Positions 17,451 through 32,242 of a stretch of DNA of 64,000 nt are shown here, in pieces. Where the stretch lies: NCBI RefSeq assembly GCF_008727815.1, contig NZ_CP044230.1:1720001-1784000 (forward strand), in the 5' to 3' direction. The notes under the pieces are model-generated. The model searched no databases, was not told the DNA's origin, and worked only from the letters and a program-made list of their open reading frames with translations. The stretch comes from Streptococcus sp. LPB0220 (GTDB lineage Bacteria > Bacillota > Bacilli > Lactobacillales > Streptococcaceae). A program made the position numbers and the translations under genes. How positions within the stretch are numbered: position 1 is the first letter of the stretch; every line of letters starts with the position of its first letter.

Positions 17451-18698
17451 TTAAATGACTTTTTGACCTTTCTTGTAGACATCTGTCACGAGATTTGTCG
17501 CAAAGAAATAGAAGAGATAATCTAGATTTGGTGCATCAAAGATGGTAATGTCGGCCTGTTTGCCAACATCGAAAGAGCCGATTGTTTTAGCACGATCAAC
17601 TGAATAGGCCGCATTGATGGTCACTGCATTGAGAATTTCTACTGGAGTTAGGCGCATCATGAAGCAACCTAGATGCATGGCAAACTGGAGATTGGCTGTT
17701 GGACAAGACCCTGGGTTGCTGTCCGTTGTTAGGGTAATGGCCATCCCAGCGTCCAACATCTTACGAGCCGGTGCATAAGTATCTTCCATCAAGCTAAAGG
17801 TTGTGGCTGGTAATAGATTGCCAATCACTTTTGCTGCAGCTAGTTTTTGAATACCTTCATCGGTAATCACCATCAAGTGTTCTGCGCTGGTAGATTTCAA
17901 TTCAGCCGCCACATCAACACCACCAATGGATTCGATCTCATCGGCATGGATCCGTAGCTTGAAGCCCATCTCCTTAGCTTTTGAAAGAAGATAGCGAGAT
18001 TCATCTGCTGTAAAGACACCTTTTTCACAGAAGATATCACAGAACTCAGCTAGTTTTTCTTCCTTCACTTTGGGAAGCATTTGCTCCACAATGAGATCTA
18101 AATATTCTTGGGAACGGCCCTTGTATTCTATGGGAATCGCATGGGCTGCCATAAAGGTTGATACCAAGTCTATTTGATGATCACGGTCCAGTGCAGCCAC
18201 AACATCCAACTGGCGTTTTTCAGTTTCCCAATCCAAACCATAGCCACTCTTGGCTTCGACAGTAGTCACCCCATGACGCAACATGTAATCCAACAGTCGT
18301 TTGGACTTGTCATAGAGATTTTCAAAAGAAGCTTCCCGTGTCGCCCGAACCGTGCTCAGAATTCCACCGCCTTGGGCGAGGATGTCTAAGTAAGAAACAC
18401 CCGCTAATTTTTTCGCAAATTCATGTTCCCGACTACCTCCATAGACCAAGTGGGTGTGGCAGTCAATCAGGCCAGGAGTCGCAACTTTTCCTTCACAGGA
18501 TTTCACTTCCGTATGGTCATCGATCAGTTCAGGGTCTGGTTGACCTGTCCCAACTGCAAGAATCTTTCCATCTTTAATGGCGATATAAGCATCGGAAAGA
18601 ATTTTTGCCTCTGCCATCTCCTTGCCATAGAGAGGATGACCCAGATCATTCGGACAAAACAATTGGTTAAAGTGGGTTAATAGGATATCAGCAGACAT
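17451..18698 (-). CDS. hutI: Imidazolonepropionase
   Basis: A 415-residue amidohydrolase that opens 4-imidazolone-5-propanoate to N-formimidoyl-glutamate, the third step of histidine breakdown. Metal ligands sit in DCHTH (H81, H83), in HADEIE and in the late [10 protein letters not shown] motif. The open frame includes an ATG at 18707, but the AAAGGAATG just upstream fits spacing to the ATG at 18698 (MSADILL), which was chosen. It is transcribed alone, divergently from hutU, across a 198-bp region with mirrored TTGAC repeats. Confidence 0.95.
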
Positions 18699-18739
18699 AT
18701 GAAACATTCCTTTCTATTTCCATTGTTATTCATTTTACA

Positions 18740-18770
18740 ATTCTACAGGAAAAGCGTCAAAAAAAGTCAA
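18740..18770 (-). promoter_or_regulatory. hutI promoter with tandem TTGAC activator-type repeats
   Basis: On the minus strand: TTGAC (18770-18766), 5 bp, TTGACG (18760-18755), 9 bp, TAGAAT (18745-18740) as -10. No ordinary -35 is present at 17 bp. The start of transcription would be near 18733, 35 nt before the hutI ATG. The arrangement mirrors that of hutU. Confidence 0.55.
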
Positions 18771-18819
18771 AAAGTTTTTCCCTCATTTTTTTTTGCTTTA
18801 TTAAAAATTATATTTTTTT

Positions 18820-18851
18820 TTGACTCTCTATTGACGTTTCTTGGATACAAT
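18820..18851 (+). promoter_or_regulatory. hutU promoter with tandem TTGAC activator-type repeats
   Basis: TTGAC (18820-18824), 6 bp, TTGACG (18831-18836), 9 bp, TACAAT (18846-18851) as -10. The two TTGAC units are 11 bp apart, one helical turn, and replace a normal -35. Direct repeats at this spacing and distance from the -10 are typical of SARP/OmpR-type activator targets. Confidence 0.55.
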
Positions 18852-18896: not shown

Positions 18897-20927
18897 ATGT
18901 CATTTATAGACGAGAAAGAAATTGCAGCTGCTATGTCTGTCAAACTTGACTTTGATGTCCTACCCGAAAAGGCGACTTTTCAAGAAGGCATCCGTCGTGC
19001 ACCTGATAGAGGCTTCCGCTTAACGCAAGCTCAGACTGAAATTGCCCTTAAAAACGCTTTGCGTTACATTCCTAAAAAATTCCACCAAGAGTTGATCCCA
19101 GAATTTCTGGAAGAACTAAAAACTCGTGGTCGGATCTATGGCTATCGCTTCCGTCCAAAAGATCGTATCTACGGAAAACCAATCGATGAGTACAAAGGAA
19201 AATGCACAGCTGCTAAGGCTATGCAGGTCATGATCGACAACAACTTGAGCTTTGAAATTGCTCTTTATCCATATGAATTGGTCACTTATGGGGAAACAGG
19301 ATCTGTCTGTGCCAACTGGATGCAATACAACTTGATCAAGAAATACTTGGAAGTCATGACAGAAGACCAAACCTTGGTGGTTGAATCGGGTCACCCTCTT
19401 GGCCTCTTCAAATCGAAACCAGAAGCTCCTCGTGTCGTCATTACTAACGGTCTCTTGATTGGTGAATATGACAATATGCGCGACTGGGAAATTGCTGAAG
19501 AAATGGGAGTAACCAACTACGGTCAGATGACGGCTGGTGGCTGGATGTACATCGGTCCTCAAGGGATCGTTCACGGTACTTTCAACACCCTTCTCAATGC
19601 TGGTCGTCTTAAACTCGGTGTGCCTGATGACGGCGACTTGACCGGTAAACTCTTTATTTCATCTGGTCTCGGTGGAATGAGCGGAGCTCAAGGGAAAGCA
19701 GCTGAAATCGCAAAAGCGGTTGCCATCGTTGCAGAAGTGGACCGCTCTCGGATCGAAACCCGTCACTCTCAAGGCTGGATTAGCCAAGTGACAGATAGTG
19801 CCGAAGAAGCTGTGAAATTGGCTCAAGCAGCCCTTGAAGCTGGTGAATCCACTTCGATTGCCTACCATGGTAATATCGTAGATTTGCTCGAATATGTCAA
19901 TGAACACCAAGTTCACGTTCATCTCTTGTCTGACCAAACCTCTTGCCACAACGTCTATGATGGTGGCTATTGCCCAGTTGGCATCAGTTTTGAAGAGCGT
20001 ACACGTTTGCTGGCAGAAGACAAAGAAACCTTCCGCCGTTTGGTTGATGAAACCTTGGCTCGTCACTTTGCAGTGATCAAAGCCTTGACGGCTAAAGGTA
20101 CTTACTTCTTCGACTACGGTAATGCCTTCATGAAATCCGTGTACGACTCAGGCATCAAGGAAATTTCTAAGAATGGTCTCGATGACAAGGACGGCTTCAT
20201 TTGGCCATCTTATGTGGAAGATATCATGGGACCTATGCTCTTTGACTATGGTTATGGTCCATTCCGTTGGGTCTGCCTCAGCGGTAAACACGAAGACTTG
20301 ATTGCAACTGACCATGCAGCTATGGAAGCCATCGATCCAACTCGTCGCTACCAAGACCGCGACAACTACAACTGGATTCGCGATGCTGAAAAGAACCAAT
20401 TGGTGGTTGGTACCCAAGCTCGTATCCTCTACCAAGATTGTATGGGCCGTGTCAACATTGCTTTGAAATTCAATGAACTCATTCGCCAAGGCAAGATTGG
20501 ACCGGTCATGATCGGACGTGACCACCATGACGTATCCGGTACAGATGCTCCATTCCGTGAAACATCAAACATCAAAGATGGATCAAACGTTACTTGTGAT
20601 ATGGCGGTTCAATGTTACGCTGGTAACGCTGCTCGCGGTATGAGTCTTGTCGCTCTCCACAATGGTGGTGGTACTGGTATCGGTAAAGCCATCAATGGTG
20701 GATTTGGTCTCGTCCTAGACGGTAGCCACCGAATCGACGAAATTATCAAATCTGCTATTTCATGGGATACCATGGGAGGGGTTGCTCGTCGGAACTGGGC
20801 ACGGAACGATCATGCTATCGAAACAGCGATCGAGTACAACCGTCTCCATGCAGGAACAGACCACATCACCATTCCTTATCTGGCAGATGAAGATTTGGTC
20901 AAAGAAGCCGTTCAAAAATTGTTTTAA
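18897..20927 (+). CDS. hutU: Urocanate hydratase
   Basis: A 676-residue enzyme converting urocanate to 4-imidazolone-5-propanoate, with tightly bound NAD+. The NAD-binding loop SSGLGGMSGAQGK is at about residues 255-267. The catalytic-region DQTSCHNVYDGGYCP and the late GRDHHDVSGTDAPFRET motif are intact. The frame extends upstream to 18699, but the ATG at 18897 has AAGGAGGG before it and gives the family's N-terminus. At 676 residues it is the longer form seen in streptococci and not the ~550-residue proteobacterial type. It is the first gene of the rightward hut operon, with 83 bp to ftcD. Confidence 0.96.
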   Translation: MSFIDEKEIAAAMSVKLDFDVLPEKATFQEGIRRAPDRGFRLTQAQTEIALKNALRYIPKKFHQELIPEFLEELKTRGRIYGYRFRPKDRIYGKPIDEYKGKCTAAKAMQVMIDNNLSFEIALYPYELVTYGETGSVCANWMQYNLIKKYLEVMTEDQTLVVESGHPLGLFKSKPEAPRVVITNGLLIGEYDNMRDWEIAEEMGVTNYGQMTAGGWMYIGPQGIVHGTFNTLLNAGRLKLGVPDDGDLTGKLFISSGLGGMSGAQGKAAEIAKAVAIVAEVDRSRIETRHSQGWISQVTDSAEEAVKLAQAALEAGESTSIAYHGNIVDLLEYVNEHQVHVHLLSDQTSCHNVYDGGYCPVGISFEERTRLLAEDKETFRRLVDETLARHFAVIKALTAKGTYFFDYGNAFMKSVYDSGIKEISKNGLDDKDGFIWPSYVEDIMGPMLFDYGYGPFRWVCLSGKHEDLIATDHAAMEAIDPTRRYQDRDNYNWIRDAEKNQLVVGTQARILYQDCMGRVNIALKFNELIRQGKIGPVMIGRDHHDVSGTDAPFRETSNIKDGSNVTCDMAVQCYAGNAARGMSLVALHNGGGTGIGKAINGGFGLVLDGSHRIDEIIKSAISWDTMGGVARRNWARNDHAIETAIEYNRLHAGTDHITIPYLADEDLVKEAVQKLF

Positions 20928-21010: not shown

Positions 21011-21910
21011 ATGGCAAAAATTGTTGAGTGTATTCCAAACTTCTCTGAAGGACGCAATCAGGCTGTGATCGACGGATTAGCAGCTACAGCAAAAAGTATT
21101 CCAGGTGTCACTTTACTAGACTACTCGTCCGATGCCAGCCACAACCGTAGCGTCTTTACACTCGTTGGGGATGAAGAAAGCATTCAAGAAGTGGCTTTCC
21201 AATTGGTGAAATACGCTTCTGAAAACATTGATATGACCAAGCACGAAGGCGAACACCCTCGTATGGGGGCAACAGACGTTTGTCCATTCGTTCCCGTTAA
21301 AGATATCACTACTGCTGAATGCGTTGAGATCGCTAATAAAGTGGCTGAACGCATCAATCGTGAATTAGGTATTCCAATCTTCCTTTATGAAGATGCTGCA
21401 ACTCGTCCAGAACGGAAAAACTTGGCCAAAGTGCGTAAAGGACAATTTGAAGGAATGCCAGAAAAATTGTTGGAAGAAGACTGGAAGCCAGACTACGGTG
21501 AACGCAAGATTCACCCAACTGCAGGGGTTACAGCTGTCGGTGTCCGTATGCCACTCGTTGCTTTCAATATCAACCTTGACACAGACGACCTAGAGATTGC
21601 CAATAAGATTTCTAAAATCATTCGTGGATCAAGCGGTGGATACAAATACTGTAAAGCGATCGGTGTCATGCTAGAAGATCGCAACATCGCCCAAGTCTCC
21701 ATCAACATGGTCAACTTGGAACAATTCCCATTGTATCGTGTTGTGGAAACCGTTCGTTTCGAAGCACAACGCTACGGTGTTCGCATCATCGGAACAGAAC
21801 TTATCGGACTGGCTCCTGCTAAGGCTTTGATCGACTCTGCTGAATACTACTTGCAATTAGAAGACTTTGACTACAGCAAACAAGTCTTGGAAAATCACTT
21901 GTTGGGTTAG
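21011..21910 (+). CDS. ftcD: Glutamate formimidoyltransferase
   Basis: A 299-residue protein starting MAKIVECIPNFSEGRN, the formiminotransferase N-terminal signature. It moves the formimino group of formiminoglutamate to tetrahydrofolate, giving glutamate and 5-formimino-THF. It is the stand-alone transferase; in mammals it is fused to the cyclodeaminase, which here is the next gene after 12 bp. KHEGEHPRMGATDVCPF is the conserved substrate loop. AGAGGT precedes the ATG. It works in the folate-sparing branch that competes with HutG. Confidence 0.95.
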   Translation: MAKIVECIPNFSEGRNQAVIDGLAATAKSIPGVTLLDYSSDASHNRSVFTLVGDEESIQEVAFQLVKYASENIDMTKHEGEHPRMGATDVCPFVPVKDITTAECVEIANKVAERINRELGIPIFLYEDAATRPERKNLAKVRKGQFEGMPEKLLEEDWKPDYGERKIHPTAGVTAVGVRMPLVAFNINLDTDDLEIANKISKIIRGSSGGYKYCKAIGVMLEDRNIAQVSINMVNLEQFPLYRVVETVRFEAQRYGVRIIGTELIGLAPAKALIDSAEYYLQLEDFDYSKQVLENHLLG

Positions 21911-21922
21911 AAAGGGAGTTCT

Positions 21923-22552
21923 ATGAAACTAGTTGACTTAAGTATTACGGAGTTTGCCAAGTTCCTTGGTTCGGATGCTCCAGCTCCAGGTGGTGGTTCT
22001 GCTGCTGCTCTATCTGCTGCGAATGGGATTTCCCTTACAAAAATGGTCTGTGAACTGACCATTGGAAAGAAAAAATACGCAGAATTTGAAGACCACATCA
22101 AAGGGGTTCATGAAAAAAGCGCTCAACTCCAAGACCAATTACTAGAAGCCATCGACAAGGATACAGAAGCCTTCAACGTCGTATCAGCTGTCTTTGATCT
22201 TCCAAAAGAAACGGAAGAAGAGAAAGCTGCTCGTCGTGAAGCCATGCAAAAAGCTTTGAAACATGCGACAGTATCTCCTTTCTCTATGATAGAGCTCATC
22301 GTTGAAGCTCTTGAAACCACCAAAGAAGCTGTTGGTAAGTCCAACACCAATGCGGCGAGTGACTTAGGAGTGGCTGCTCTCAATCTCAAGGCTGGACTTC
22401 AGGGGGCTTGGCTCAATGTCCTGATCAACATTTCAGGAATCAAGGACCAAGACTTCGTCCAAGAATACCATAGCAAGGGACTCGAACTCCTCCAAACCGG
22501 TTCTGATCTTGCAGATAACATTTACCAAACCATTTTAGAAAGTCTATCTTAA
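21923..22552 (+). CDS. fchA: Formimidoyltetrahydrofolate cyclodeaminase
   Basis: A 209-residue all-helical protein with the family motif [18 protein letters not shown] (residues ~18-35). It releases ammonia from 5-formimino-THF to give 5,10-methenyl-THF, feeding the one-carbon pool. It starts 12 bp after ftcD with AAAGGGAG as ribosome site. The two subunits probably act together as the bifunctional enzyme does in animals. It is intact and of normal length. Confidence 0.93.
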
Positions 22553-22587: not shown

Positions 22588-24261
22588 ATGGTTTTATCGG
22601 ATATTGAAATTGCCAATTCTGTCCAAATGAAGCCCATCACGGAAATCGCTGCTGAACTTGGATTGACTGAAGACGACATTTCGCTCTACGGAAAATACAA
22701 GGCAAAAATCGATAGCAACCAACTGGAACAACTCAAGGATAAAGAAGATGGAAAGCTGATCCTCGTGACAGCCATCTCTCCGACACCTGCTGGAGAAGGA
22801 AAGACAACCACCTCTGTTGGCTTGGTCGATGCTCTTTCAGCTATTGGTGAAAAAGCCGTCATTGCTCTCCGCGAACCGTCTCTTGGCCCTGTCTTTGGGA
22901 TCAAGGGTGGAGCTGCCGGTGGCGGGTACGCCCAAGTGGTTCCAATGGAAGATATCAACCTTCACTTTACCGGAGACTTCCATGCCATTGGGATTGCCAA
23001 CAACCTCCTTGCAGCCTTGATTGACAACCATATCCATCACGGCAATGAGTTGGGCATCGATTCTCGTCGCATCACCTGGAAACGGGTGGTCGATATGAAC
23101 GACCGTCAACTCCGTCATATTGTCGATGGCCTTCAAGGAAAAACAAACGGAGTTCCTCGTGAAGATGGCTTTGACATCACCGTGGCTTCTGAAATCATGG
23201 CCATTCTCTGTCTCTCTGAAAATATCCTTGATCTCAAAGAACGTCTTGATCGCATCATTATTGGGTACAACTACCAAGGACAACCGGTCACAGCCAAAGA
23301 TCTCAAGGCTGGAGGTGCCATGGCAGCTGTCCTCAAAGATGCCATCCATCCAAATTTGGTGCAAACCTTGGAACATACTCCTGCCATCATCCACGGTGGA
23401 CCATTTGCCAATATCGCCCATGGCTGTAACAGTGTGCTGGCTACTAAACTAGCCCTCAAATATGCAGACTATGTCGTGACAGAAGCTGGTTTTGGAGCAG
23501 ACCTCGGTGCTGAAAAATTCATCGATATTAAGTGCCGCATGGCCGGGCTCAAACCTGCTGCCGTTGTCCTCGTCGCAACCATCCGTGCTCTCAAGATGCA
23601 TGGTGGAGTTGCCAAAGCAGACTTGGCTACCGAAAATGTCCAAGCCGTTATCGATGGACTACCAAACCTAGACAAACACTTGGCCAACATTCAAGAAGTC
23701 TATGGTCTACCAGTGGTCGTTGCCATTAACAAATTCCCACTGGATACAGAAGCAGAGCTAGAAGCTGTCTATGAATCTTGTAAGAAACGCCATGTAGATG
23801 TGGTCATTTCAGATGTCTGGGCACATGGTGGAGCTGGTGGTCGTGACTTGGCTGAAAAAGTCATTCAACTGGCTCAAGAAGAAAACCACTTCTCTTATGT
23901 CTATGACGAAGAAGACAGCATTGAAACAAAATTGACCAAGATCGTCACAAAAGTCTATGGTGGTAAAGGCATCAGCTTAACACCAGCGGCCAAACGCGAA
24001 CTCAAAGAATTGGAAGCTCTTGGCTTCTCAAACTACCCAATCTGTATGGCCAAAACCCAATATTCCTTCTCAGACGATGCGAAGAAGATGGGAGCACCAA
24101 AAGATTTCACAGTTAAAATCAGTAACCTTAAGGTGGCTGCCGGAGCTGGCTTCATCGTAGCTCTCACTGGTACCATTATGACCATGCCTGGCCTACCTAA
24201 AGTTCCTGCCAGTGAAAAGATTGATATCGATGCCCACGGCAATATCACTGGTCTCTTTTAA
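22588..24261 (+). CDS. fhs: Formate--tetrahydrofolate ligase (10-formyl-THF synthetase)
   Basis: A 557-residue enzyme with the ATP-binding [14 protein letters not shown] loop (around residues 66-79) and the [22 protein letters not shown] signature shortly after. It interconverts formate + ATP + THF with 10-formyl-THF. Inside a hut operon it may run in the ATP-forming direction, returning one-carbon units as formate; this is inference from position. Streptococci often have a second housekeeping copy elsewhere, which this window cannot show. It lies 35 bp after fchA and 15 bp before hutD. Confidence 0.95.
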
Positions 24262-24276: not shown

Positions 24277-24855
24277 ATGGTGACTCTCCTTCATCTTACC
24301 CCCGCAGATTATCAAATTTCTACCTGGTCCGGTGGCCAAACCACCCAACTCTTTCTCTCCCCAGAGGGAGGAAGCTATCCAGATCGGACCTTTGACTTCC
24401 GCCTCTCTACTGCAACGGTAGAGGTTGAAAAAAGTAACTTTACCGATCTCACGGGCTACCACCGAATCTTGATGCCCTTGAATGCCTCCATTAGGCTCAC
24501 CCATCACCATAAAGAAGTGGTTTTGAACCCCTTTCAAAGCTACTTCTTTGATGGGGGAGATCCTGTATCTAGCCAAGGGACTTGTCAAGACTTTAATTTG
24601 ATTTACAAACCTTCTTATCAGGGGCATATGAGTGCTATATCCCCAAAAGAGAGTGTCAAAAGTCAGAGTCGCTATCAATTGATCTACGCTCTCTGTCCAC
24701 TAACACTCGAATGGGGAAACAATCATTCTCAAACTCTCCAAACTCACGAGCTCCTGGTGATCGAACAAGCATCTCCTCTTCAAGAGATGACAATCACGTT
24801 TTTACCCCATCAGTCTGGGGAGCAACCGATTGCTATCTGGACTGGACTACAATAA
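24277..24855 (+). CDS. hutD: HutD family protein
   Basis: A 192-residue cupin-like protein of the HutD/Ves family. It begins MVTLLHLTPADYQISTWSGG, followed by TTQLFLSPEGGSYPDRTFDFRLSTATVE, both typical of the family. HutD proteins occur in many hut operons; a role in limiting urocanate build-up or sensing formiminoglutamate has been proposed, but the activity is not settled. The C-terminal half here is less conserved. It lies 15 bp after fhs and 21 bp before the permease, clearly in the operon. Confidence 0.85.
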   Translation: MVTLLHLTPADYQISTWSGGQTTQLFLSPEGGSYPDRTFDFRLSTATVEVEKSNFTDLTGYHRILMPLNASIRLTHHHKEVVLNPFQSYFFDGGDPVSSQGTCQDFNLIYKPSYQGHMSAISPKESVKSQSRYQLIYALCPLTLEWGNNHSQTLQTHELLVIEQASPLQEMTITFLPHQSGEQPIAIWTGLQ

Positions 24856-24876: not shown

Positions 24877-26220
24877 ATGAACGGAGCACATAAACAGTCG
24901 ATTGAGGAACAAGAAAAAGCGAAATTCAGCTTTAGCGGTGCCACTCTTTACGGTATCAACGCCGTAATCGGATCTGGTATCTTCCTCCTTCCTCAAAAAA
25001 TTTATTCTGGCCTCGGACCAGCTTCTCTAGCTGTCATGTTCGGGGTTGCCATTCTCGTCATGCTACTATCAGCCTGTCTGGCTGAAACAGCTGGCTACTT
25101 CGACAAAAACGGTGGAGCCATGCAATACTCAAAAGCCGCTTTCGGAGACTTCGTTGGCTTTAACGTTGGGATTCTCGGTTGGGCCGTTACTGTTATCGCT
25201 TGGGCTGCCATGTTAGCCGGATTTGCTAAGATCTTCATCATCACCTTCCCAGCATTTGAAGGCTACAACCTTCCGATCAGTATCGGTATGCTGATTCTCT
25301 TGAGTCTGATGAACATTGCCGGTCTGAAAACCTCTAAGATGTTTACTCTGACAGCTACTGTTGCAAAATTAATTCCAATTGTCCTCTTCTCACTCTTTGC
25401 CATCTTCTTCATTCCCGGTGGCGTGAGCAAGGGCAACTTCACACCTTTCCTTCAATTGGAAAGTGGAACAAACCTCTTCAGTTCTATTTCTAGTACAGCC
25501 GTCTACATCTTCTACGGTTTCATCGGATTTGAAACCATGTCTATCGTTGCAGGGGAAATGCGCAACCCTGAAAAGAACGTTCCCCGCGCTATTCTAGGTT
25601 CTATCAGTATTGTATCTGTTCTCTACATGTTGATCATCGCAGGAACAATCGCCATGCTTGGTGGTCGCATTATGCAAACTGGTGCACCAGTACAAGACGC
25701 ATTTGTCGAAATGATTGGCCCTATCGGAGCTCCACTCGTTTCTTACGGAGCCCTCATTTCAATCGCCGGTCTAAACATCGGTGAATCCATCATGGTCCCT
25801 CGTTTTGGTGCCGCATTAGCAACTGAAAAACTCTTGCCAGAAGGGCTTGGAAAAACAAACTCTAAGAATGCCCCTGTCATTGCCATTATCATTTCTGGTA
25901 TCTTCGCCTTCTTACTCTTGTTATCTGGCTCTTTCGAAACATTAGCAACCTTCAGTGTTGTCTTCCGTTTCTTCCAATACATTCCAACTGCTTTGGCAGC
26001 CATCAAACTCAGAAAAATGTACCCAGACAAAAAGGTTACCTTCCGAGTACCATTTGGTCCTGTTATCCCAGTTCTAGCTGTTGTGATCAGTATCTTGATG
26101 ATTGCAGGGGACAACCTAATGAACTTTGTTTGGGGTGCCATCGGTCTCGTGATCGCAAGTGGACTCTACTTTGTTTTCCACGGCGATAAACTACATAAAT
26201 CGAAAACCCTTCCTCACTAA
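24877..26220 (+). CDS. APC family amino-acid permease (probable histidine or urocanate uptake)
   Basis: A 447-residue membrane protein with about twelve helices. The APC substrate motif GSGIFLLP (around residue 32) lies in the first helix, and FIGFETMSIVAGEMRNPEKNVPRA is the conserved loop. It sits inside the hut operon between hutD and hutH, with AAAGGAG before the ATG, so import of histidine or an intermediate is the natural guess. The exact substrate cannot be read from sequence. The N-terminus has 25 charged soluble residues. It is intact. Confidence 0.85.
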   Translation: MNGAHKQSIEEQEKAKFSFSGATLYGINAVIGSGIFLLPQKIYSGLGPASLAVMFGVAILVMLLSACLAETAGYFDKNGGAMQYSKAAFGDFVGFNVGILGWAVTVIAWAAMLAGFAKIFIITFPAFEGYNLPISIGMLILLSLMNIAGLKTSKMFTLTATVAKLIPIVLFSLFAIFFIPGGVSKGNFTPFLQLESGTNLFSSISSTAVYIFYGFIGFETMSIVAGEMRNPEKNVPRAILGSISIVSVLYMLIIAGTIAMLGGRIMQTGAPVQDAFVEMIGPIGAPLVSYGALISIAGLNIGESIMVPRFGAALATEKLLPEGLGKTNSKNAPVIAIIISGIFAFLLLLSGSFETLATFSVVFRFFQYIPTALAAIKLRKMYPDKKVTFRVPFGPVIPVLAVVISILMIAGDNLMNFVWGAIGLVIASGLYFVFHGDKLHKSKTLPH

Positions 26221-26233
26221 TTTTCTTTACACA

Positions 26234-26288
26234 CTAGATGGGAACAGAGACGGGAGTGAAGCTCGGTTTTGCTCCCTAACCCATCTAG
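26234..26288 (+). other. Large stem-loop between the hut permease and hutH
   Basis: CTAGATGGG (26234-26242) pairs with CCCATCTAG (26280-26288). GGGAG (26252-26256) pairs with CTCCC (26272-26276) inside. No T-run follows, so it is not a standard terminator. It may be an mRNA processing or stabilising structure. The 216-bp gap also contains the palindrome ATGGGCCCAT near 26360, and I see no clear hutH promoter. Confidence 0.5.
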
Positions 26289-26436
26289 GACTCCACGAAT
26301 GTCAAACCTGAGCCCTTTTCTCTATGACTCCTTTCAATTTTTTTAGATCAATAGACAATGGGCCCATGTTTGGTATTCAAACCGAAGTAAACAACACTAC
26401 TTCCACAGAACAACTATTCATAATCGGAGGTTTTAT

Positions 26437-27978
26437 ATGACTCAATTGATTCATTTAGATGGTAATAGCTTAACACTCGAAGAAGTCATCGCTGTCGCTC
26501 GGCACGGTGCCCAATGTGAGCTTGATGAACAAGCCAAAGAAGCCGTTATCGCATCCCGTAAAATCGTTGATGACATTGTCCGGGAAAAACGAGTCGTCTA
26601 TGGTGTAACCACTGGCTTTGGTTCCCTCTGTAATGTCAGCATCTCTCCAGAAGATACTGTTCAACTGCAAGAAAACCTGATCCGAACTCACTCATCTGGC
26701 TTCGGTGATCCACTTCCTGAAGATGCTGTTCGTGCCATCATGCTGATCCGTATCAACTCACTCTTGAAAGGTTATTCTGGCATTCGTCTGTCAACCGTTG
26801 AAAAACTGTTAGAATTGCTCAACAAAGGAGTCACTCCTTATATCCCTGAAAAAGGCTCTCTCGGAGCTTCTGGAGACCTTGCTCCTCTTTCTCATATGGT
26901 TTTACCAATGTTGGGCCTTGGACGTGCCTACTACAAAGGAGAACTTCTCAGTGGTCAAGAAGCCTTAGATCGTGCTGGAATTGAAAAGATCCAATTAGCT
27001 GCCAAAGAAGGGCTTGCCTTGATCAATGGTACGACTGTCCTAACCGGTATCGGTGCTCTTGCGACTTATGATGGTATCCAATTGCTCAAACTCTCTGATA
27101 TCGCTGGTGCTCTCTCAATGGAAGTTCACAATGGAATTACCAGTCCATTCGAAGAAGACCTTCATTCCATCCGCCCACAAAGTGGACAATTGGCAACTGC
27201 TCGCAACATCCGTAACCTTCTTGAAGGAAGTAAGAATACCACTGTTGCGACTCAACAACGGGTACAAGATCCTTATACACTTCGCTGTATCCCTCAAATA
27301 CATGGAGCCAGCAAGGATTCTATTGCTTACGTAAAAGAAAAAGTTGAAATCGAAATCAACTCTGTCACAGATAACCCAATCATTACCAAAGAAGGACACG
27401 TCATCTCAGGAGGTAACTTCCACGGTGAACCAATGGCGCAACCATTTGACTTCTTAGGCATTGCCCTTTCTGAAATTGGGAACGTATCTGAACGTCGGGT
27501 GGAACGCTTGGTCAACAGCCAACTCAGTAAATTACCATCCTTCTTAGTCAAACACCCTGGACTCAACTCAGGCTTCATGATTACCCAGTATGCTTGTGCA
27601 TCCCTTGCATCGGAAAATAAAATTTTGGCTCACCCTGCTAGTGTCGATTCTATTCCATCTTGTGAAAACCAAGAAGATTTCGTCAGCATGGGAACGACTG
27701 CCGCTCGTAAAGCAGCAGAAATTCTTAAAAACTCACGTCGCATCGTTGCTACTGAAATCATGGCAGCTTGCCAAGCCTTGGATCTCAAGCCAGAAAATCA
27801 TGAACTTGGTAAAGGGACAAAACCAGCTTATGAGCTGATTCGTCAAAAACTGAACTTCATTGAATTTGACAAAGATATCGAAATCTTTGAAGAACTTAAT
27901 AAAGCATCTGCTGTTGTCGAAAGCGAAGAATTCTTAGCAACCATCGAAAAAGCAGTTGACTTAAGCATTCAATACTGA
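26437..27978 (+). CDS. hutH: Histidine ammonia-lyase
   Basis: A 513-residue MIO-dependent lyase, the first step of the pathway: histidine to urocanate plus ammonia. The tripeptide that cyclises to the MIO cofactor, A144-S145-G146, is present in [14 protein letters not shown]. Other active-site landmarks are YGVTTGFG (55-62) and [21 protein letters not shown] precedes the ATG. It lies 216 bp after the permease, across a structured gap, and 82 bp before hutG. Confidence 0.97.
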
Positions 27979-28060: not shown

Positions 28061-29053
28061 TTGCTCACAAACTACTATCCAATGACCTACAGCTACTACC
28101 AAGGTAGCATCGAGGACAATCCCTACACGGCCAAATGGGGAATGGTCACCAAATTTTTAGACCTAAACGACGAGACCCTCACTCCATTTGAGGGTATGAC
28201 CTTTGGGATCATCGGCTTTAAGAGCGACAAAGGAGTCTATATCAATAATGGGCGTGTAGGAGCAGTCGAGGGTCCTACAGCCATCCGTTCTCAAATCGCT
28301 AAACTTCCATGGCACTGGGGAACCAATGTGACAGTGTATGATGTGGGAAATATTGACGGGCCTAACCATTCACTAGAAGAACTCCAAGAAAGTCTCTCAC
28401 AAGCGATCCAGCGCATGTACCAACTAGGGATCCAACCCATTGTCCTAGGAGGCGGTCACGGAACTGCTTACGGCCACTATCTAGGGATTCAATCCAGTTT
28501 AGAAAAAGATGAACAACTGGCTGTGATCAATCTGGATGCCCACTTTGATTTGCGACCTTACGACCAAACCGGTCCCAATTCTGGAACAGGTTTTCGTCAA
28601 ATGGCTGATCATGCGAAAGAAAAAGGTCAGGACTTCCCTTACCTCATCCTGGGGATCCAAGAGCACAATAATAACCTCTTCCTCTTTAATTACGTTGCTA
28701 AAACACCAAGCATTGATTTTTTAACTGGCCAAGATCTCTTCCAGATGAGCCACCAAGCCATTCTGGATCGAATCGATCAATTTTTAGAAAACCAAACCGC
28801 GATCTATCTGTCTATTGATATGGATTGCTTTGCGGTCGGCTCTGCTCCTGGTGTTAGCGCCATCCAATCGCTTGGTGTCGATCCTAAACTAGCCCTCCTG
28901 CTTCTCCAACACATTGCTGCTAGTGGTAAGCTAATCGGATTTGATGTCGTGGAAGTTTCTCCTCCTCATGATATTGACAACCATACTTCAAACCTTGCTG
29001 CGACCTTTATCTTTTACTTGACCCAAATATTGGCGCAACAAAAACTGAACTAA
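28061..29053 (+). CDS. hutG: Formimidoylglutamase (TTG start)
   Basis: A 330-residue ureohydrolase-fold (arginase-like) enzyme that hydrolyses formiminoglutamate to glutamate and formamide. The manganese ligands are visible in [23 protein letters not shown] and SIDMDCF. The start is a TTG at 28061 with AAGGGAGG eight bases upstream. An in-frame ATG at 28082 has no better site. This is the second route from formiminoglutamate, alongside FtcD/FchA in the same operon. It is the last hut gene, followed by a strong terminator. Confidence 0.93.
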
Positions 29054-29196: not shown

Positions 29197-32133
29197 CTAC
29201 AGGTCTTTTAATTTTTTAAGAAAATGACGATCTCTGTAGGGATTCAAGTGTTGCTCTGCCACCTTCTTGTAGTAATTCTTATCTTCTTTCAAGAAGGTGC
29301 TCAGGGCAGGAGCGAGCTCTTCTCCTTTCTCCTTTTGATCAGATAAGAAAGCTAATAGATAATGAACCATCCCCTTATCCCGTGAATTAGCAGATGGTTT
29401 CATCGTCCTTTCTTTTCGAGCCAGATAATCCGCAACCTTCTCCTGATCCCCTTGCTGACAAGCAATCAAGGATTGGTAAAATTCGAGCAATTCTTCCTTC
29501 CAAGGGAAGCGAACACTGGACAAAATCTTCTGAGCTCTGTCAAAACAGAGGCGAGCTTGGATCAAATCTCCCTTCCAATAATAGGCGATCCCAAGATCAA
29601 TATCAAAGACGACACGGACGGAATCAACAGCTTGATCTCCCACTAAACGCAGAACCTCTTCTAAGTGGGTGACCGCTACTTGGAAATGTCCTCTCACTTG
29701 CTCGATTTCAGCGAGGTAGGCCAAAGAAGCTGCAATTTGAATGGCATACTTGGCCTGCATGCTATTGGTTAAACTAAAGCAATCAATGGAGCGATACAGA
29801 TGCCGGGTCGCCTGCTCCTCATCCCCAACCATCAGGTGATACAAGCCTTTCAAACGCAACTGGATCGCGATGACCTCATGATTATTGGCTTGGATAGCAT
29901 CTTCCAGAGCCAAATCTGTATAATAGGCCATCTCAGAGATATTCTCCGTTTGAATGCAATAATAAATAATTTGCCGATAACCCTCTAAGAGGAAGTCGGA
30001 TTGCTTGAGTTCCCGCGCATAGGAGATGACTTTTTGGATATCATGAATCCCCTTTTGATACTCCCCACTCCGAATAAAATAGCGACCTTCTAGGTACAAG
30101 TAACGCAGTTGCAAATGCTTGTATTCTCTATCTCTTTGGTGCCTTGAAAAGAGGTTATCTAATTCTTGGCGAATGCGGGATAGCTCTCCAAAAATGTCCA
30201 AATGGCTATTTGTACCATCTGATAGGAACCCCTCATCTGCCTTGGAATAAATCGGAAACAGTTCATGCTCCAGCTGAAGAATTTCTTCTAAGTAGGTCAA
30301 CTCAAACGATAAGGAGCGCAAGAGATTTTGGGATTGCTTGTATTGGTAGGCAATTTCCTTATAAAGAAGAAGGTCCGTCGCATCTTCTAAGGTTTCTTCC
30401 AATTTTTGCGCAATTTGTTGGTGGAAGAGCCGCCGTCTAGCTGGCGAAAGAAGATGGTAACAGTACATGGCTACCAATTGCTTGCAAAATTGAACCATGA
30501 GAGCCTCTCCTTCTTCTACTATTGAGACGATCGCTCTTTCAGATAAAGGCTCGATTAATTCTGTCAAAACAGGAAGCTCTGTAGCCGTCAATTCTGCCAA
30601 GATAGACAGAGAAATTGGCTTATGAAAACAAGATAGGTAGTGTAGAAGAGCCTCTTCCTCACTGCTCATATCCCCAAGTTCCTGAGAAAGATAGGCTTGA
30701 ATGATATCAGGCAAGGGTTCTAAATTTTCATTTTCTTTCCACTCTTCGATATAGCTGGACAGCAAGAACGGACTGCCTTCACTCCATTCAACCATCTGCT
30801 CCATCACTGCCGGCTCTATTGCCCCCAGTTCCCCTTTCAAGAGAGCACGACTTTCACTTGGGGAAAAATTGGTCAACTCTAGTTGGGACAAGCGTTTCTC
30901 TACCTTCAAGCCCCCCAAGAAGTTGACGAAGAAATCTGGTAGGGGATCTTCCGCTGTGAAAATTAGTTGCCATTTCTCCTGACTTCTTCTCTCCTCTAGT
31001 TGTTTCACTTTTTCTAGAGACACTGCATCGAACCACTGGGCGTTTTCAAGCAGGATCAGGAGCGGTTTTTCTTTGCTAAGGCCTTGAAGCTGATTCCATA
31101 CAGAAATGAGATCATCCTCCTCTTCCAGAAGGGAAATCCCCATCTCATCCCCCAGTTTCTCTAGCGCTTGTCTGAGATCATTCCAGCTGCTTCCTTCGTA
31201 TCGTTGACTAGTAGCTTTTCCTTCCACCTTGATAAAGTTAAAACTGCGATTGGACATCAAGACCAACTGTCGCAACAGACGTTTCTTACCTGTTCCAGAT
31301 TGCCCCATCACGAGAAAAGGACCTACCGCTTCACCTGTCTCGACTAAGGAAAGGTATTCCTCGAGTTGCGAGAGTTCTTGTTTCCGACCAAAGAAGGAAA
31401 GTTCACGGATATTCAAGCAATTGGTCAGTTTATGAGTTCGTTTGGCTTCCAAAACGGAGTGATAAAGTTCCTCAATCGCTCGACTGGGACGCACACTGAG
31501 CTCGCGATCCAATAAATCAACTAGCTTATAATAGGTCTCAAAAAATTTTCCTAGCTGATGATGGAAGCTATAATACTCCATCAAGAGCTGGTAGTTTTTC
31601 TCTTCAAATTCATCCAGCTCTACCAAATGATGGAGCAAGAGTTCTATACTAGGATCTGCAAAACCGACCTGCTCAATTTTTTGATAGCAACTTTCGACAT
31701 AGAGCTTCCTATAAGCATCTCGTTTGCGAGAAGCCCACTGATCAAAGTCTTCATCATCCTTGACATAGAAGCCCTCTAGAAAGTCTCCCTGATAGAGATC
31801 CAAGGCACTTAGTGGATTTCTTTCAAAGAGCTGAACATCCAAAGAAAGACTCAACTCAGGATTAAGAGCCAAACTACTTCTGCTTGGTGAGACAATGATA
31901 TCTCCTTCAAAGATTTTATTGGCTTGGTAAACCGTATTCCGTAAGTTTTTGCGAGCTACTTGGTTTTCCTTATCTCCCCAAAGGATACTGGCTATTTCAT
32001 CACGGTTAACTTGGCCCATGACCGCTAAATAATAAAGCAAGGCCTCCATCTTCGAAAAAGAAAACCGAATAGTTTTCTGATTGAAAACAACCTTAGGGGG
32101 TCCAAATAACTTTAACGTGAGATCTTTCTTCAT
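29197..32133 (-). CDS. SARP-like transcriptional regulator: wHTH, BTAD, ATPase and TPR domains
   Basis: A 978-residue cytoplasmic regulator. Residues ~5-95 form an OmpR-type winged helix (LKLFGPPKVVFNQKTIRFS, LWGDKENQVARKNLRNTVYQ). Residues ~97-235 are a BTAD domain, followed by an ATPase module with a P-loop GQSGTGKK (277-284) and LLILLENAQWFD as Walker B-like. Much of the C-terminal half is helical TPR-type repeat. The P-loop has K-K instead of K-T/S, so ATP hydrolysis may be weak. The ATG at 32133 has GGAGG eight bases upstream, and an open frame to 32205 precedes it. Its place beside hut and the tandem-repeat promoters of hutI/hutU suggest it controls histidine use; this is inference. Confidence 0.8.
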   Translation of the reverse strand: MKKDLTLKLFGPPKVVFNQKTIRFSFSKMEALLYYLAVMGQVNRDEIASILWGDKENQVARKNLRNTVYQANKIFEGDIIVSPSRSSLALNPELSLSLDVQLFERNPLSALDLYQGDFLEGFYVKDDEDFDQWASRKRDAYRKLYVESCYQKIEQVGFADPSIELLLHHLVELDEFEEKNYQLLMEYYSFHHQLGKFFETYYKLVDLLDRELSVRPSRAIEELYHSVLEAKRTHKLTNCLNIRELSFFGRKQELSQLEEYLSLVETGEAVGPFLVMGQSGTGKKRLLRQLVLMSNRSFNFIKVEGKATSQRYEGSSWNDLRQALEKLGDEMGISLLEEEDDLISVWNQLQGLSKEKPLLILLENAQWFDAVSLEKVKQLEERRSQEKWQLIFTAEDPLPDFFVNFLGGLKVEKRLSQLELTNFSPSESRALLKGELGAIEPAVMEQMVEWSEGSPFLLSSYIEEWKENENLEPLPDIIQAYLSQELGDMSSEEEALLHYLSCFHKPISLSILAELTATELPVLTELIEPLSERAIVSIVEEGEALMVQFCKQLVAMYCYHLLSPARRRLFHQQIAQKLEETLEDATDLLLYKEIAYQYKQSQNLLRSLSFELTYLEEILQLEHELFPIYSKADEGFLSDGTNSHLDIFGELSRIRQELDNLFSRHQRDREYKHLQLRYLYLEGRYFIRSGEYQKGIHDIQKVISYARELKQSDFLLEGYRQIIYYCIQTENISEMAYYTDLALEDAIQANNHEVIAIQLRLKGLYHLMVGDEEQATRHLYRSIDCFSLTNSMQAKYAIQIAASLAYLAEIEQVRGHFQVAVTHLEEVLRLVGDQAVDSVRVVFDIDLGIAYYWKGDLIQARLCFDRAQKILSSVRFPWKEELLEFYQSLIACQQGDQEKVADYLARKERTMKPSANSRDKGMVHYLLAFLSDQKEKGEELAPALSTFLKEDKNYYKKVAEQHLNPYRDRHFLKKLKDL

Positions 32134-32163: not shown

Positions 32164-32192
32164 ACTATAAAAAAAAAGTTGGCTTTTAGCAA
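32164..32192 (-). promoter_or_regulatory. Promoter of the SARP-like regulator
   Basis: On the minus strand TTGCTA (32192-32187), a 17-bp spacer with a T-tract, and TATAGT (32169-32164). It lies just after the metF terminator, so the regulator has its own transcript. Confidence 0.65.
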
Positions 32193-32205: not shown

Positions 32206-32242
32206 ATAAAAAGAGACTGAGAACGATTCTTTCTCAATCTCT
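32206..32242 (-). terminator. metE-metF terminator
   Basis: On the minus strand AGAGATTGAGAA, a 7-base loop and TTCTCAGTCTCT, followed by TTTTTA. It lies 24 bp after the metF stop. Confidence 0.85.

Follow-up and report, generated by a model that had tools for sequence, protein, structure and literature searches.

The hut gene cluster of Streptococcus sp. LPB0220 raises the question of which protein controls the divergent promoters of hutI and hutU, from which the genes for histidine breakdown are read in opposite directions. The stretch analyzed here, referred to as the window, comprises 64,000 nucleotides of a 2.13-Mb genome (NZ_CP044230.1, positions 1,720,001 to 1,784,000, forward strand), and all coordinates are those of the window unless another locus is named. 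A first-pass annotation made from the sequence alone had proposed that both promoters carry mirrored pairs of TTGAC half-sites and that these are matched to a SARP-like regulator of 978 residues encoded at the other end of the cluster (29197-32133, minus strand). The pattern turned out to be informative and the match appears to be right, in that regulator and hutU co-occur in 61 Streptococcus genomes and the sites follow the regulator gene. Based on these comparisons, we consider it highly probable that the SARP-type regulator is the partner of the hutI and hutU operators. What appears to be new is that a large SARP in Lactobacillales is dedicated to the breakdown of an amino acid, together with a near-fixed distance between its two operators.

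Mirrored TTGAC pairs between hutI and hutU

On the plus strand, the hutU promoter has a distal half-site TTGAC (18820-18824), a proximal half-site TTGACG (18831-18836), and, 9 bp after TTGACG, a -10 box TACAAT (18846-18851). On the minus strand, the hutI promoter mirrors this layout with TTGAC at 18770-18766, TTGACG at 18760-18755, and TAGAAT at 18745-18740, again with 9 bp between TTGACG and the -10 box. Direct reading and conservation among relatives confirm the mirrored pairs and their distance to the -10 box on both arms. The two operators are separated by 49 bp of A/T-rich DNA (18771-18819), the length of which, and not the sequence, is conserved across relatives.

The repeat period is 11 bp in the hutU operator and 10 bp in the hutI operator. 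In the heptamer convention (TTGACGN), the sites measure 7 + 4 + 7 + 8 bp, and the hutI site of this genome 7 + 3 + 7 + 8 bp. The 10-bp period is peculiar to this genome, as the hutI operator has an 11-bp period in the other 53 distinct Streptococcus regions; it arises because the A-tract at 18759-18765, with seven A residues shorter than in relatives, has lost one base by a strain change, slipped-strand variation, or a sequence error. Thus, of the gaps of 5-6 bp originally described, the 6-bp gap at hutU stands and the 5-bp gap at hutI holds for this genome only.

The pattern TTGACN{5,6}TTGAC has two matches in the window, namely the hutI and hutU operators, compared to 0.40 expected, and 4 of 100 shuffled windows contained at least two matches. 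Judged from the window alone, the pair pattern would count as moderately unusual, and it is conservation that settles whether it is real. A scan of the window with a position weight matrix (PWM) of the operator gave no operators with a score of at least 8 beyond these two, and an Rfam scan of 14000-37000 at the gathering threshold gave no match to a riboswitch or other leader RNA.

We extracted the hutI-hutU regions from all 61 sampled Streptococcus genomes with a full-length hutU and obtained 54 distinct sequences. A divergent hutI and both half-site pairs were present in 61/61 genomes, and the hutU pairs differed from TTGAC/TTGAC at 0 to 3 of 10 positions. Among the 33 distinct hutU sites, both GAC cores and the T-A-x-A-x-T of the -10 box are invariant except for one base in one site (distal GAC in 33/33; proximal GA in 33/33 and C in 32/33), and many, not all, of the remaining columns are weakly conserved. 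As a check on circularity, sites were picked by their half-sites alone, ignoring the -10 box, and spacers of 4 to 15 bp were then scored. A -10-like hexamer was located at exactly 9 bp in 44/54 distinct regions for hutU and 51/54 for hutI, and at any other spacer in at most 4/54, except for a spacer of 6 bp at hutI (24/54). At neither promoter did any of the 54 regions have a -35 element with more than 3/6 matches 16-18 bp from the named -10 boxes. The earlier statement that a -35 element at the normal distance is missing therefore holds for these -10 boxes; it fails insofar as TTGACG itself can be read as a -35 element with another hexamer.

Operators and regulator gene occur together

Among 217 Streptococcus genomes, the regulator was present in 62 and a match to hutU in 64, of which 61 were full-length (87-100% identity) and 3 distant (31-32%). 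All 61 genomes with a full-length hutU are among the 62 with the regulator. In the 62nd (G109; L095), which has no hutU, a 3,833-bp contig contains part of hutG and a fragment of the regulator gene, consistent with transfer or contamination. In the three streptococci with a distant hutU, no sites were found at PWM score 10.

A second sample of 295 Lactobacillales contained 47 genomes with hutU, 30 of them outside Streptococcus (13 genera). The regulator was present, with divergent hutI and hutU, in 26 of these 30, and its gene lies downstream of hutU on the same strand in 13 (gap of 184-1660 bp) and on the hutI side in the other 13. In Streptococcus, it is convergent at the far end in 51/51 loci checked (of 61). 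Because the placement differs, gene order must have changed between the groups and the association stayed. At a PWM score of at least 5, a hutI site was found in 24 and a hutU site in 20 of the 26 genomes; direct reading of the regions gave clear hutU sites in 24/26 and, with G730 placed by eye, hutI sites in 26/26. Using half-site-only picks, a -10-like hexamer was at 9 bp in 20 genomes for hutU and 18 for hutI. With the exceptions considered below, the sites are thus direct repeats with an 11-bp period, the 3' repeat 8 bp from the -10 box, and no good -35 element, as is characteristic of SARP operators.

The four Lactobacillales genomes with hutU and without the regulator belong to one genus (g148), in which hutU and hutI are codirectional. 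No operator sites were found in these genomes at PWM score 5, and a TTGACA-17-TATAGT promoter is located ~290 bp upstream of hutU. Half-site pairs scoring 9 upstream of hutU in the four genomes were rejected as SARP sites, as they correspond to this sigma-70 promoter. Of 398 genomes sampled across the class, 15 had the regulator at E 1e-20, including one with a weak match; none of the regulator-less hutU loci read there (3 long-form with their upstream DNA and 12 short-form) had a site at PWM score 6, a count that leaves aside a fourth long-form locus (G292), which is a contig-edge fragment. In the comparison across genomes that had been proposed at the outset, the sites therefore persist with the regulator and are absent or replaced without it.

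To assess specificity, we counted a strict version of the pattern in whole genomes. In 17 genomes with hut, it had 36 matches, 29 in hut and 7 elsewhere, and the reversed control pattern had 26; in 17 genomes without hut, there were 21 matches and 21 control matches. This pattern misses 5 of the 34 hut sites of the 17 genomes with hut, including the 10-bp hutI site described here. As matches outside hut are at chance level in these 17 genomes, a wider regulon was rejected, and a broad direct regulon via this motif is unlikely. The regulator looks dedicated to hut.

We note that an extra half-site pair, TTGACCTTTTTTTGAC, facing away from ftcD, is present ~290-330 bp upstream of this gene in four genomes of the genera f2/g3 and f3/g7 (L187, 13966; L189, 2547; L192, 16554; L193, 2433). 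In genus g3 (L189, L192, and L193), a canonical-looking ftcD promoter, TTGACT-17-TATTCT, is followed by a CcpA-like site.

The regulator has the domains of a large SARP

The 978-residue protein, the gene for which is convergent with the hutU operon, consists of a winged helix-turn-helix (HTH) domain (residues ~1-98), a BTAD domain (99-233), a STAND/NOD ATPase (~247-560), and a TPR part (~561-978). The N-terminal OmpR-type winged helix followed by BTAD is the signature of the SARP family, and a NOD ATPase with Walker A motif (AAA_16, E 6.7e-13) plus TPR is that of its large members. The Walker A residues G277, G280, G282, and K283 are invariant across 37 regulator sequences, and the NOD and TPR parts match the structures 6mfv (E 7.5e-16) and 8bob (E 3.5e-8). 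A whole-protein sequence search found none of the solved SARP structures at E 0.1, and a match required a profile of the SARP domain. Domains, profile, and predicted fold together bear out that the protein is SARP-like and indicate an AfsR-like large SARP.

Among the matches listed, sequence records mostly name such proteins "AAA family ATPase", "LuxR family", or "BTAD domain-containing", and a few distant ones SARP family. We treat the LuxR name as unsupported: Pfam gave no match to GerE (LuxR-type HTH) at E 0.001 over the whole protein, although no dedicated test was made, and the DNA-binding domain found is the N-terminal SARP domain.

The closest named relatives are from S. parasanguinis (98% identity). 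Streptococcus regulators outside the clade of the window regulator are 35-48% identical to it, and hutU of these genomes is 87-91% identical. When conservation is scored in 15-residue windows over the 37 sequences, which include Streptococcus and other genera, the highest values of the entire protein fall on the recognition helix (windows starting at residues 59-61). This is expected for a protein that changes fast and reads an operator that does not.

A candidate promoter of the regulator gene, TTGCTA-17-TATAGT (32164-32192, minus strand), matches the consensus at 9/12 positions, and such matches are no commoner than in shuffled sequences; no operator was found near it at a PWM score of at least 8. 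A terminator-like hairpin lies in the gap between metF and the regulator gene (32212-32242, minus strand), in a region with a hairpin count equal to that of shuffles. Outside Lactobacillales, homologs ~31-33% identical to a Streptococcus regulator were observed in Peptoniphilus (P0194) and in metagenome-assembled genomes of Peptoniphilaceae (P0199) and Lawsonibacter (P0207). In five genomes (G125, G057, G090, G147, and G015; L086, L072, L076, L064, and L085, respectively), the regulator gene is broken by stops or frame breaks; G125 and G015 have an incomplete hutI match as well, as would fit a pathway in decay.

The two operators lie at a near-fixed distance

In 60 of the 61 Streptococcus genomes, the gap between the two operators is 49-52 bp (standard deviation, 1.5), and the flanking distances from -10 box to ATG range from 33 to 157 bp for hutU and from 25 to 254 bp for hutI. 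Among the 26 genomes of other genera, the gap is 49-51 bp in 19 and 61 bp in 5, the latter all from one genus; it is 49 bp in G730 after placement by eye, and G721 was left out. Thus, the gap is 49-52 or 61 bp in 84/85 genomes scored automatically, or in 85/86 including G730. The step from 50 to 61 bp corresponds to about one helical turn, which suggests a preference for phase, the 61-bp class possibly reflecting a single event. That the gap is near-fixed and the flanks vary widely suggests that the bound complexes touch, which would give joint control of both hut arms.

Relation to known regulators

According to the AfsR structure paper, the repeats bound by SARPs follow each other at 11 or 22 bp, the 3' repeat lies 8 bp from the -10 box, and the SARP dimer engages the repeats and sigma region 4 together (PMC10936776). 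The 7 + 4 + 7 + 8 layout of the hut sites is that of SARP operators. AfsR of Streptomyces coelicolor (8k60, 8hvr, and 8jke; PMC10936776) is likewise a large SARP, for which auto-inhibition relieved by ATP has been shown. In contrast to AfsR, the hut regulator would target amino-acid breakdown in lactic acid bacteria, its gene lies within the hut cluster in the genomes examined, and it has two mirrored operators at a near-fixed distance, with TTGAC as the half-site in place of the AfsR repeat. PimR and other SARP-LAL regulators (PMC5930380) share with the hut system heptamers with 4-nt spacers and a position within the cluster, and PimR has a second operator with 10-bp units, similar to hutI of this genome. 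In that secondary operator of S. natalensis, the spacer is 3 nt, and lengthening it to 4 raised expression (PMC5930380). PimR differs from the hut regulator in having only one target gene, which serves polyene synthesis, and a main operator of three repeats (PMC5930380).

The NOD plus TPR architecture is common to the hut regulator and to MalT and other STAND regulators (8bob and 6mfv); 8bob, titled as a maltose system, is presumably MalT. MalT binds DNA by a C-terminal LuxR-type domain, whereas the DNA-binding part of the hut regulator is the N-terminal SARP domain. Known regulators of hut genes differ from it in family and logic: HutC of Pseudomonas is a GntR-type repressor of hut genes, and HutP of Bacillus is an RNA-binding antiterminator.

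BrpL (SSA_0427) of S. sanguinis SK36 is described as BTAD plus TPR, and the paper presents it as a LuxR-type regulator of biofilm that works via ciaR (PMC5987052). BrpL is reported from S. sanguinis, S. pyogenes, S. gordonii, S. canis, and others, and as absent from S. mutans and S. pneumoniae (PMC5987052). Based on the described domains and this list of species, BrpL is probably the ortholog of the hut regulator; we infer this, as our protein searches, including the best 120 of 493 matches in one of them, contained no record tagged SSA_0427. The first-pass annotation regarded control of amino-acid catabolism by a SARP in a streptococcus as notable. The presence of such a protein in streptococci is not new: the SARP likeness of SSA_0427 had already been annotated, with a 2007 paper cited for the genome annotation (PMC5987052), and it is the link to hut for which we found no precedent in print: our literature search, with subscription papers outside its scope, gave no earlier link of a SARP-type regulator to hut. 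A term search of the main text of a comparative regulon paper on lactic acid bacteria (PMC3616900) found neither "hut" nor "histidine". In muscle infected with S. pyogenes, the hut genes of this species are strongly upregulated, with mean log2 values of 6.38 to 7.27 (PMC6803311), and the terms "SARP", "LuxR", and "BTAD" do not occur in the main text of that report.

A possible activator-dependent switch and alternative explanations

In the model that we favor, the hutI-hutU intergenic region would be a two-way, activator-dependent switch. Two SARP domains would sit side by side on each TTGAC pair, one turn apart, with the proximal one 8 bp from the -10 box in the heptamer convention, and, as in the solved AfsR complex, this pair would hold sigma region 4 and RNA polymerase in place of the missing -35 element. 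One operator pair would drive hutI and the other hutU-ftcD-fchA-fhs-hutD-permease-hutH-hutG, presumably as a single transcript. The ATPase and TPR parts would keep the regulator off until ATP and a signal bind, and our guess for the signal is histidine or an early product such as urocanate. As the fixed gap of 49-52 or 61 bp suggests, the two bound dimers would also touch, placing both arms under joint control. In its most ambitious form, which we hold only tentatively and would not bet on, the two SARP dimers contact each other via their STAND/TPR parts so that hutI and hutU fire together only with the signal; such an assembly would be gated by a ligand in the manner of MalT and built on a SARP frame, serving one amino acid, old in Lactobacillales, and so far described only as a biofilm regulator.

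Several observations weigh against this model. The genomes are related and the counts overstate independence, the 61 regions reducing to 33 distinct hutU and 30 distinct hutI sites. The hutI operator of this genome departs from the 11-bp period, and in the streptococcus L078 the two operators are 43 bp apart, which is off phase. In other genera, G721 has no convincing hutU site and that of G654 is weak, the spacer to the -10 box is 8 bp at both promoters at once in G814 and G748 (L258 and L266) and 10 bp at hutI in G730, and -10-like hexamers occur at other spacers in up to 7/26 genomes. The brpL mutant has 474 genes changed, with ciaR raised, many genes up, and a ciaR-mediated effect on biofilm (PMC5987052); a term search of the main text of that paper found no "hut" or "urocanate", and "histidine" once, for a histidine kinase. 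Finally, mutation of ccpA or covR in S. pyogenes alters its histidine-degradation operon (PMC2841617), so that the SARP regulator would not be the sole input.

We considered three other explanations. If the promoters were ordinary sigma-70 promoters, the proximal TTGACG would be a -35 element with a different -10 box and the distal TTGAC would be incidental. A consensus scan does find TTGACG-17-TAAAAT at hutI (10/12 matches) and TTGACG-18-GAAAAT at hutU (9/12), but it gives 23 sites in all compared to 24.0 in shuffles, and the invariant distal GAC of the 33 distinct hutU sites is left unexplained. Moreover, the alternative -10 boxes (A2 and T6; spacer of 18 at hutU and 17 at hutI) are found in 15/54 distinct regions each, whereas the hexamer at 9 bp is found in 44 and 51 of 54; such promoters were rejected as not conserved, and we regard this explanation as very improbable. 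A similarly slim chance attaches to the possibility that the sites serve another DNA-binding protein and that the SARP-like protein is a mere passenger in the hut cluster, e.g., a biofilm regulator, as the altered biofilm, ciaR, and carbohydrate genes upon deletion of BrpL in S. sanguinis might indicate (PMC5987052). However, co-occurrence and loss of sites follow the regulator gene through changed gene orders and down to ~30% protein identity, the site layout is that published for SARPs, and the strict motif is at chance outside hut; the effects reported for BrpL may be indirect. It is also unlikely, if less so, that the same activator acts at the same sites with a TPR part that reads a peptide and not histidine or a breakdown product; in the RRNPP peptide receptors (Rap and NprR), it is a TPR domain to which the signaling peptide binds.

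The favored model of a SARP-type activator at both operators would supply histidine breakdown, in streptococci and in the 12 further Lactobacillales genera sampled, with a regulator, an operator, and a rule that can be tested. It would also mean that a design usually associated with the control of antibiotics in actinomycetes, the large SARP, serves ordinary nutrient use in lactic acid bacteria as well, and it predicts that the published effects of BrpL on biofilm are indirect. As a small two-promoter system, the locus would be suited to working out how a ligand gates a STAND-type SARP.

The genes of the hut cluster

The cluster consists of hutI on the minus strand, eight divergent genes on the plus strand, and the convergent regulator gene. 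hutI (17451-18707) encodes imidazolonepropionase (TIGR01224, E 4e-139). On the plus strand, hutU (18897-20927) encodes the long form of urocanate hydratase with 676 amino acids (TIGR01228, E 1e-126) and is followed by ftcD for glutamate formimidoyltransferase (21011-21910; TIGR02024), fchA for a methenyltetrahydrofolate cyclohydrolase-like protein (21923-22552; Pfam FTCD_C, with NF045657 below its cut-off), fhs for formate--tetrahydrofolate ligase (22588-24261; NF010030), and hutD (24277-24855; PF05962, E 2.2e-25). Next are the gene for an amino acid permease, probably for histidine as judged by its position (24877-26220; PF13520), hutH for histidine ammonia-lyase (26437-27978; TIGR01225), and hutG for formimidoylglutamase (28061-29053; NF010347). 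The permease gene and hutH are separated by 216 bp, within which lies a strong hairpin (26234-26288) that is present in one copy in the genome; the folding energy of 26225-26345 is -29.7 kcal/mol (z -1.95).
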